A stretch of 64,000 nt of DNA, from the NCBI GenBank assembly GCA_000773965.1, contig JRUP01000018.1:124001-188000 (forward strand). The letters are read 5' to 3'. The DNA is from Enterobacter cancerogenus. GTDB lineage: Bacteria; Pseudomonadota; Gammaproteobacteria; Enterobacterales; Enterobacteriaceae. This document shows positions 6,273 to 53,020 of this stretch, piece by piece. The stretch's first letter is position 1; each line of letters starts with the position of its first letter. The notes beneath the pieces were generated by a model. It ran no database searches. It worked only from the letters and a program-made list of their open reading frames with translations, and was not told where the DNA came from. Made by a program: the position numbers and the translations under genes.

Positions 6273-6359
6273 GCGACGGTGGCGGAATTGGTAGACGCGC
6301 TAGCTTCAGGTGTTAGTGTCCTTACGGACGTGAGGGTTCAAGTCCCTCCCCTCGCACCA
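6273..6359 (+). tRNA. leuQ: tRNA-Leu (CAG), copy 1
   Basis: An 87-nt class II tRNA with encoded CCA, a long variable arm and anticodon CAG in the loop CTTCAGGT. It corresponds to the first of the E. coli leuQPV genes. The acceptor stem has a C5-C68 mismatch. The T arm is GAGGG/CCCTC around TTCAAGT. Confidence 0.97.
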
Positions 6360-6389
6360 ATAATCACAAAGTTTATATCATAGCACTGA

Positions 6390-6476
6390 GCGATGGTGGC
6401 GGAATTGGTAGACGCGCTAGCTTCAGGTGTTAGTGTTCTTACGGACGTGAGGGTTCAAGTCCCTCCCTTCGCACCA
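6390..6476 (+). tRNA. leuP: tRNA-Leu (CAG), copy 2
   Basis: Second 87-nt copy, identical in the body to copy 3. It differs from copy 1 in the acceptor stem (position 5 T, position 68 T) and by one base of the variable arm (GTTCTT instead of GTCCTT). Anticodon CAG and encoded CCA are present. Confidence 0.97.
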
Positions 6477-6511
6477 ATGCGATGATATAAACCAAAAAAA
6501 GACAACACAAT

Positions 6512-6598
6512 GCGATGGTGGCGGAATTGGTAGACGCGCTAGCTTCAGGTGTTAGTGTTCTTACGGACGTGAGGGTTCAAGTCCCTCCCTTCGCACCA
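6512..6598 (+). tRNA. leuV: tRNA-Leu (CAG), copy 3
   Basis: Third 87-nt copy, same sequence as copy 2, with anticodon CAG and encoded CCA. The three genes are spaced 30-35 nt apart and share one promoter. Confidence 0.97.
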
Positions 6599-51544: not shown

Positions 51545-51556
51545 GGTGTTTAAGTG

Positions 51557-52000
51557 ATGGAGACACTGCATACAACACTGCTTCAGATGAAAAGCACGCT
51601 GGAGGAGCTGGATGCCATTATGGTAGCCGAGGCGAATCAGCTTGATCGCCCCCAAATCAACCCTGTGGCGCTACAGGTGCTCACTGACAGCAAGAGTCAG
51701 TTACTTGCGACCTTGCAGCATCACGATGAGATGCGGCTGCAGCAGGAGGCAAGCTTAGCCATTGCCGCGCCCTATCCGCATCGCGTGCAGCTGTTTGTGT
51801 GCTGGCAGCAAATCACCGAACGCGTCCGTCGCAGTAAGGCTTTGAATAGTGAGGTGGAGGCGCGTTTACAACATCATCTGGAGAAAACCCAGCGGGTACA
51901 GAAGGTGGTGGATCAGGTGGGGCATCATCATACGCTATACGGGTCTGGCGGGGAGTCTGGCCCAGCGGTGTTGGGTAGGAAATACGATATCAGTGTTTAG
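51557..52000 (+). CDS. flgN: flagellar export chaperone FlgN
   Basis: 147 residues, helical; chaperone for FlgK and FlgL. It matches FlgN in layout (helical hairpin, SQLLATL, C-terminal LYGSGG). GTG at 51554 is an alternative start, with GAGG 7 nt upstream. It lies 12 nt after flgM. Downstream comes the non-coding, palindrome-rich gap. Confidence 0.88.
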   Translation: METLHTTLLQMKSTLEELDAIMVAEANQLDRPQINPVALQVLTDSKSQLLATLQHHDEMRLQQEASLAIAAPYPHRVQLFVCWQQITERVRRSKALNSEVEARLQHHLEKTQRVQKVVDQVGHHHTLYGSGGESGPAVLGRKYDISV

Positions 52001-52122
52001 GGACGGGGTGGGTACGCCTGGTAGTGGGCTGGCTATGGCCCTGCATGGGCTGGAGTGAGCTTGATATAGGGTCGGTGCGGGCTAGGGTGAACGAGTAGTA
52101 GGCTCGGCGTGGATTGGGTGCG

Positions 52123-52332
52123 GGCCCCGAGGCATCTGCTGCGGCACGGGCAGTCCTCGCGCCGCTGACGCGGTGCCCTCGACTTCCACGTCGTGCCTAC
52201 GGATCGTTCGGGGATCGACCATCCCTGGTCGGCCCCGAACTGATTCACGCATCCCTGCGTGAATCTCCTGGCCCAACGTAAAAGTCTCGGCGCTGCGAAT
52301 AGCCCTTTTGCCGCAGCAGACGCCTCGGGGCC
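52123..52332 (-). repeat. palindromic element L (TIR-bounded, hairpin-rich)
   Basis: 210 bp bounded by 24-nt terminal inverted repeats (52123-52146 and 52309-52332) that match at 23 of 24 positions. Inside are a 31-nt GC-rich core (52150-52180) and two hairpins with TCCC loops. The hairpins are at 52217-52230 (stem GACCA/TGGTC) and 52242-52265 (10-bp perfect stem GATTCACGCA/TGCGTGAATC). On the minus strand the loops read GGGA. No coding potential and no clear target-site duplication are seen. Confidence 0.85.
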
Positions 52333-52450
52333 TGCAACATTGTGCCTGTTTGTATAAACCACAAGCCCCCAACGCTCTGCCTGTATCATCAGTCACAAAC
52401 ATAAGCCGATACGCTCTTTGTTCCTGGCCAAACGCACCGACATTGAAGAG

Positions 52451-52649
52451 CAGGCTGGGGCCGCATTTGGGCTGGCATTTCGCAGCGCTGAACGGAATGA
52501 GGAAGCCAGGAGAGCCAGCATGGATGCTGGCGAAAGGTGCAGCCGGAACAGGGATGTTCCGTCTGCACCGGTCCGTCAGGCTGACGAGTGAAGTGAGGGC
52601 ACCGCGTCAGCGGCGCAAGGACCGCCAGCCCAAATGCGGCCCCAGTCTG
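52451..52649 (+). repeat. palindromic element R (same family, opposite orientation)
   Basis: 199 bp bounded by inverted repeats 52451-52476 and 52624-52649 (25 of 26 positions, with a perfect inner 22). The 31-nt core (52595-52625) matches the core of element L at 29 of 31 positions on the opposite strand. Two hairpins lie at 52514-52531 (perfect 7-bp stem, loop TGGA) and 52538-52567 (12 of 13 paired, loop GGGA). The terminal repeats differ in sequence from those of element L, although the inner architecture is the same. Confidence 0.85.
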
Positions 52650-52720
52650 CGCCAGCTCTCCGCCGTTAACCCCCCAGCAGTAAAACTTGCCAGTCACCAG
52701 CCTGCACCAGCATCCACACC

Positions 52721-53020
52721 TTACAACACCGCATAAGCACGGGCAGACTGGCGAGATTTACGCAGCGCGGCGATCTCACCGTGCAGCGTTGCCAACCGAG
52801 CCGGAATGCACTGCATCAACTGCGCATCCTCCGCCAGTAACTGCGCTAAACACACTGCATCCGCCTGACTGAAATCACACGCACACAGCGCTTTCATCCG
52901 CTGTGTATATTCCACAATCTCCTCGCTGAATGCCTCCCACCCTTCCTGTTGCGCCAGTGCGCTCAGCCGCTGGTTCAGTGCCAGCAAGGCTTGAATCTGC
53001 TCTTTCACATCACTGAGCAT
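52721..53020 (-). CDS. fliT: flagellar chaperone/regulator FliT
   Basis: A 99-residue helical protein. FliT escorts FliD to the export gate and, when free, inhibits FlhDC. Assigned from position after fliS, size and the helical pattern; sequence conservation in the family is low. Overlaps fliS by 11 nt. Confidence 0.85.
   Translation of the reverse strand: MLSDVKEQIQALLALNQRLSALAQQEGWEAFSEEIVEYTQRMKALCACDFSQADAVCLAQLLAEDAQLMQCIPARLATLHGEIAALRKSRQSARAYAVL

Follow-up and report, generated by a model that had tools for sequence, protein, structure and literature searches.

Between the convergent genes flgN (51554..52000, + strand, left flank; PF05130, 43.1 bits) and fliT (52721..53020, - strand, right flank; PF05400, 30.8 bits) of the window, the 64,000-nt stretch of DNA analysed here, lie two oppositely oriented hairpin elements, each bounded by terminal inverted repeats (TIRs). 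What kind of element these are, and what might maintain them, is the question raised by this locus.

Two structured elements in the flgN-fliT gap

The L-type element spans 52119..52336 (218 bp, GGA-loop strand -); its 28-nt outer TIR arm (52119..52146, 93% complementary) pairs with the inner arm at 52309..52336. The R-type element spans 52450..52650 (201 bp, GGA-loop strand +), with a 27-nt inner arm at 52450..52476 (96% complementary) that pairs with the outer arm at 52624..52650. The initial annotation had both elements ending in their inverted repeats, and they do, but the arms reach slightly past the limits it gave (52123-52332 and 52451-52649). Upon recounting, its TIR matches (23/24 for L and 25/26 for R) were exact, and the 31-nt core that it found common to L (52150..52180, - strand) and R (52595..52625, + strand) at 29/31 positions on opposite strands is the best ungapped 31-mer match of L against R. 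The 4-nt TCCC and TCCA loops were likewise correct for the strand that had been read, and are GGGA and UGGA on the opposite strand. Pfam matches of the flanking genes to FlgN and FliT agree with the reported location, and the four ORFs that run across the elements include none matching Pfam at E 0.1, as expected from the reported lack of protein-like ORFs.

L and R are TIR-bounded and structured beyond chance. The best 24-nt inverted repeat within 52000-52720 scored 23, compared with a maximum of 20 in 100 dinucleotide shuffles, and the folding z-scores were -13.3 (L) and -10.0 (R), with none of 200 shuffles equally stable. A simple consensus scan detected neither a promoter-like site in the gap nor a rho-independent terminator at L or R, the sole terminator-like site in the gap being located at 52689-52701, outside both elements. 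An sRNA of the CsrB/RsmZ type with its own promoter and terminator was rejected because neither signal was found at L or R. The L/R spacer (52337..52449) resembles at both ends the ~45-bp core of tightly spaced pairs, and its middle is unrelated, as judged by eye from an alignment. Elsewhere in the window, positions 6273-6595 contain three tandem tRNA genes of 84 bases each.

A catalogued RNA core within a dispersed repeat

The cores of both elements match the Rfam family RF01731 (TwoAYGGAY) at or above its gathering threshold of 43 bits: the R core (52507..52584, + strand, loops UGGA and GGGA) scored 54.7 bits, and the L core (52199..52270, - strand, two hairpins with CA-GGGA-UG loops) scored 44.0 bits. 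The base preceding GGA in the loops is frequently G or missing, not the Y of AYGGAY. Rfam lists RF01731 in clan CL00106, which we take to be the clan of CsrB-like RNAs. A search of 20,395 E. coli records with R as query gave no match; E. coli carries ERIC, and by this search R therefore lacks similarity to ERIC. The initial annotation had not recognised the elements as ERIC, REP or a named MITE, which holds for REP and ERIC by the tests made but not for the core, which is catalogued as RF01731. It had also staked its reading on there being no known, catalogued repeat or IS remnant at the site; neither was found, and the RNA core alone proved to be catalogued.

TwoAYGGAY was reported from human gut, gamma-Proteobacteria and Clostridiales, and was considered probably an RNA and probably not cis-regulatory, according to excerpts of the original description (PMC2864571). 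Excerpts of the literature found under the name RF01731 give no sign of TwoAYGGAY as an interspersed repeat, and literature searches, judged mostly from listings, showed no link of the L/R repeat with CsrA or Pantoea. Within this scope, the L/R unit has a known RNA core, and its genomic form, a paired dispersed repeat in Pantoea, is new.

At E 1, the genome that contains the window (5.67 Mb, 101 contigs) yielded 20 RF01731 matches, and 10 of these exceeded the cut-off. BLAST searches with the two halves recovered 14 near full-length copies of R and, for L, 13 hits that were 136 bp or longer, plus fragments. Of 60 genomes in the genus, inferred to be Pantoea, 51 had RF01731, as did 95 of 295 genomes of the order, representing 28 of 99 genera and often in multiple copies, so that the family is testable in other hosts too; none of 14 control genomes had a match. 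Scanning named sequences for the shared core identified at least 107 stretches, and among the matches listed all belong to Pantoea or Erwinia sp. S63. All 107 stretches were used for the pairing and gene-context counts, with more loci in existence, and the first 80 for subtypes, spacers, single-element orientation and GGA-loop counts. The named loci are 8-kb blocks, and some "single" elements may be pairs cut at a block edge. Pantoea megaplasmids also carry the repeat, 46 of 47 records being typed non-mobilizable. A phage or viral origin was discarded, as phage records and viral contigs gave no match.

Copies were located at contig starts in L114, L126, L132, L147, L163 and L166 and at contig ends in L102, L143, L148 and L153. 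Because copies run into contig ends, the repeat evidently breaks draft assemblies, and draft copy numbers are likely underestimates. The window's genome also contains two weak RF01731 matches (L019 1508-1619, 26.9 bits, ~112 bp; L020 near 1501-1614, 26.8 bits) that belong to another type with a different outer stem.

L and R form a recurrent back-to-back unit

All 10 two-element sites in the window's genome, with fragments set aside and one site containing a partial L, consist of one L and one R with their GGA strands directed outward. Among the at least 107 named loci, all 48 adjacent pairs are L plus R placed back to back, 32 in the order L-/R+ and 16 in the order R-/L+; collapsing shared flanks leaves 36 distinct sites. 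The opposite-facing L and R thus make up a single recurrent L/R heterodimer and are not arranged this way by chance. The initial annotation had argued that this was "not one simple duplicated MITE", and a simple duplicated MITE is ruled out: L and R are two stable subtypes that remain separate across the species sampled.

Spacing varies. The first 80 loci contain 37 pairs; in eight of these the 5' extensions overlap by an identical 18 bp, and others have inserts of up to 400 bp, some of which are partial copies of an L arm. Partial L 5' halves were observed in the spacers of the wide pairs at L116 (2854-2986), L103 (5628-5737), L140 (941-1052) and L158 (612-723). Tandem copies of ~40 bp of the R outer end lie just outside the element at L142 (5228-5392) and L109 (6358-6481), and the 3' flanks of L033 and L038 likewise contain tandem ~40-bp copies of this end, as if repeatedly duplicated. 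One site exists in four genomes as a full pair (L167), as L plus a piece of R (L139 and L174), and as a truncated L (L074). At least some single elements are therefore decayed pairs.

Sites are concentrated at the 3' ends of genes

Gene context was scored with a longest-ORF heuristic applied identically to sites and control gaps; 38 of 105 sites were excluded because no gene could be called within 600 bp on one of their two sides. The remaining 67 sites, drawn from the at least 107 loci, comprised 48 convergent, 17 codirectional and 2 divergent ones, as compared with 52 convergent, 184 codirectional and 101 divergent among 337 control gaps (odds ratio for convergent 13.8, Fisher p 2e-19). At 15 of the 17 codirectional sites the element was closer to the 3' end of the upstream gene. 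Collapsing shared sites (n = 46) left 34 convergent, 12 codirectional and none divergent. The window's genome gave the same picture: its 18 scored sites, with four short R fragments excluded, were 11 convergent and 7 codirectional, all seven of the latter closer to the 3' end, with none divergent. Three annotated plasmid sites were available, of which two are convergent (malQ/malM and PQQ dehydrogenase/phytase-like) and the third has codirectional neighbours, with a gap in the annotation.

Eight single elements at codirectional sites, among which L150/C43 and L119/L171 represent the same sites in two species each, were antisense to the upstream gene in five cases and sense in three. This distribution argues against a plain 3'-UTR role, which would predict a bias. 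Tail-to-tail bias is usual for intergenic repeats, according to the excerpted sources (PMC2718517, PMC1525189), and therefore placement alone does not show function.

A sample from other families (37 loci from 15 genomes, three of undetermined context; L025, truncated at a contig end, was scored ~110 bp off) gave a convergent share of 13/34 as against 4/25 control gaps, and its codirectional copies lay closer to the 3' end in eight cases and to the 5' end in nine. The codirectional copies in this sample show no 3' preference, and the Pantoea pattern is not yet extendable to all RF01731. In another family, the locus L238 (G164 C1 3659500-3663800) contains RF01731 copies at a spacing of 436-612 bp inside a tandemly duplicated compound repeat that also holds GTCATCCCCGTGTAAACGGGGATCTCC-like palindromes; a cassette-like reading of this array was rejected in favor of tandem duplication of the compound repeat. 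In family f12 (flanks of L024-L028, L030 and L031), a second palindrome, GTTACTTTTCTTT...AAAGAAAAGTAAC, abuts most RF01731 copies examined.

The arms co-vary and the fold is retained

The initial annotation had suspected that the arms co-vary, and alignments of 40 R and 39 L sequences confirmed it. The alignments combine the window's own elements with a hand-thinned set from the first 80 named loci, where 49 R and 45 L copies were eligible and 39 and 38 of them, respectively, were retained. In R, 27 of the 63 pairs had changed on both sides, and in L 25 of the 72; the predicted fold was kept in 98.3% (R) and 97.2% (L) of cells. None of 500 shuffles reached any of the measures, and sliding the partners by 1-3 columns lowered pairing to 34-43%. 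Because the outer TIR stem itself co-varies (15 of 26 pairs in R, 13 of 19 in L), the L and R arms look different from each other.

Copies at the same site in different species were compared over the pairs predicted from both strands, using 12 R and 15 L hand-picked comparisons, one of which (L139/L074) includes a truncated copy. Among 442 such pairs in R, 21 had changed on both sides and stayed Watson-Crick, as had 13 among 479 in L, where about 2 and 1, respectively, are expected if the two sides change independently. Conversion by another copy or hairpin-templated (palindrome) repair could contribute to these double changes.

The GGA strand is modestly preferred. Among pairs that both strands predict, G-T columns outnumbered A-C columns by 12 to 6 in R and by 12 to 6 in L, and cells by 26 to 6 (R) and 16 to 7 (L). 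Over the union of either-strand pairs, the column counts were 25 vs 15 (R) and 28 vs 15 (L), and same-site single changes were 26 vs 11 (R) and 20 vs 10 (L); the cell counts were 160 vs 110 in L but reversed in R (95 vs 137). Consensus energies also favored the GGA strand over the other, at -102 vs -90 kcal/mol (R) and -106 vs -63 kcal/mol (L). Scored on the fold predicted from the GGA strand, G-U exceeded A-C by 93 to 7 (R) and 158 to 13 (L), but the fold of the opposite strand gave an excess on itself too (136 vs 28 and 104 vs 18). The raw ratios are largely a product of fold choice, since each strand's fold favors itself, and a strong strand claim based on 93:7 and 158:13 was withdrawn after the recount over both strands' folds. 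Selection at the RNA level is likely but not proven, and the strand preference, being only modest, lowers the probability of the RNA/CsrA reading considered below.

Loop GGA motifs and the predicted link to CsrA

GGA is present in the loop of hairpin 1 in 39 of 40 R and 38 of 39 L sequences, and of hairpin 2 in 36 of 40 R and all 39 L sequences, and it stays while neighbouring stem bases vary. Stem-loop 2 of the R core in the window, GGAACAGGGAUGUUCC, fits 11 of the 12 positions of the SELEX consensus RUACARGGAUGU, as quoted in an excerpt of PMC4844966. A motif screen, likewise available in excerpt, had matched TwoAYGGAY to the CsrA-binding motif and predicted CsrA binding (PMC4333381). The window's genome encodes one CsrA (PF02599, 92.4 bits), identical at 59 of 61 residues to PDB 1y00, presumably the E. 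coli CsrA protein, and it contains CsrB (185.7 bits) with the motifs CAGGAUG, CAGGACG and AUGGAUG. From this fit, the hairpins are predicted to be CsrA docking sites. Within one copy the GGA loops are not significantly enriched, as two GGA loops arose in 35 and 43 of 300 shuffles. A co-occurrence comparison was uninformative: the presence of CsrA in all 95 RF01731-positive genomes says little because 286 of the 295 genomes have CsrA.

Presence, absence and mobility

A fliT match was found in 7 of the 60 genomes of the genus, including the window's own. Five of these have the flgN-fliT junction without the element, namely G021, the closest relative identified (fliT 94% identical), and four others, and in the seventh (L098) a flgN match is absent beside fliT. 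At the G021 junction, 11 bp like the L outer end are joined to bases like the R outer flank, as judged by eye; an untouched empty site was therefore rejected, and the junction may be a deletion scar. Given this possible scar, the junction shows presence and absence of the element, not insertion. No clean target duplication was seen at two sites compared with element-free relatives. The Y1 transposase domain (Y1_Tnp, PF01797) had no match in the window's genome, whereas the E. coli positive control matched, and a RAYT-mobilised REP was rejected for this genome. We know of no transposase that matches the L/R repeat.

What may maintain the repeat

The likeliest single reading of these results, to which we give a little less than an even chance, is that L/R is a BIME-like heterodimer repeat of Pantoea and near relatives maintained as CsrA-binding hairpins. 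Two structured units of ~200 nt, set back to back at gene 3' ends, form one dispersed repeat. Read-through from either flank would transcribe the far half in the GGA sense, and this RNA would fold into a long TIR stem bearing two CsrA-type hairpins that a CsrA dimer could bridge. CsrA so bound might protect the 3' end of the transcript, titrate CsrA, or both, and outward inverted pairing would provide one GGA-sense module per read-through RNA, whichever the direction. The repeat may have spread by an enzyme acting in trans or by one now extinct.

The strongest competitor is a repeat of REP/BIME type acting at the DNA level, a possibility to be taken seriously even though we doubt it: hairpin DNA spread by a transposase, with CsrA irrelevant, arm complementarity arising from hairpin-templated repair, conversion or the needs of the transposase, and 3' ends serving as the least harmful landing places. 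Heterodimers and tail-to-tail placement are indeed usual for REPs and intergenic repeats (excerpts of PMC3733652, PMC2718517 and PMC1525189), the tandem copies of the element end outside R fit such an origin, and the strand preference is modest. Palindrome repair, however, does not predict a loop GGA that stays fixed beside varying stems, the ~200-nt unit far exceeds REP length, and the genome lacks a Y1 transposase, even if CGTC-tagged REPs, too, occur without RAYT (PMC3733652, in excerpt).

Returning to CsrA binding, a bolder extension, which we regard as speculative and rather unlikely, is that the elements are transposable CsrA decoys. A mobile heterodimer would seed CsrA-binding hairpins at dozens of gene ends, its copy number together with host-gene transcription would determine how much CsrA is free and would draw unrelated genes into the Csr network, and RF01731 would comprise elements of this kind throughout the order.

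A terminator or insulator that works in both directions between convergent genes, its hairpins stopping or stabilising transcripts with GGA being incidental, would account for the 48 of 67 convergent sites, and the flgN-fliT junction of two relatives, L094 and L097, carries hairpins with T runs that look like terminators, as seen by eye; L and R themselves lack a terminator-like site, and a terminator needs neither GGA loops nor the L/R pairing rule, which makes this explanation improbable. An attC-like site for single-strand DNA recombination or integration, recognised by fold instead of sequence, would suit the conserved fold and variable arms but is very improbable given the short L/R spacers (none above 400 bp among the 80 loci) and the lack of any copy in the phage records and viral contigs searched.

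For an orphan Rfam family, these results supply a genomic identity in Pantoea, that of a paired repeat dispersed over gene 3' ends, together with a partner that can be tested. Should CsrA bind, the repeat family would act on a global regulator as a heritable dial that varies in copy number, and it would be a case in which selection after insertion has acted on the RNA of an interspersed bacterial repeat as well as on its DNA.

Comparison with known systems

Like MITEs, the L/R elements are TIR-bounded, noncoding and interspersed, and their presence varies among species; unlike in MITEs, their arms vary between copies yet co-vary, no clean target duplication was seen at the two sites examined, and no matching transposase is known. 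The resemblance to REP, BIME and REPIN sequences includes extragenic location, bias to 3' ends, inverted heterodimers and some singles derived from dimers, but the L/R units are ~200 nt long (201 and 218) compared with the 20-40 nt of REP palindromes, their host genome is without a Y1 transposase, and each encloses a double hairpin whose GGA loops are fixed. CsrB/CsrC and RsmX/Y/Z are sRNA genes with a promoter and a terminator. They share with L/R the GGA motifs of CAGGAUG/AUGGAUG type, which are also present in the genome's own CsrB, whereas the L/R repeat occupies ~20 sites per genome and neither a promoter nor a terminator was found for it in the window. The closest relative is TwoAYGGAY (RF01731) itself, with which L and R share the double hairpin core with GGA loops and whose gathering score both exceed; CsrA binding had been proposed for this family before (PMC4333381, in excerpt). 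In the excerpted papers TwoAYGGAY is a candidate RNA or CsrA-binding sRNA, whereas in the present analysis it forms the core of a paired, TIR-bounded repeat dispersed at the 3' ends of genes.
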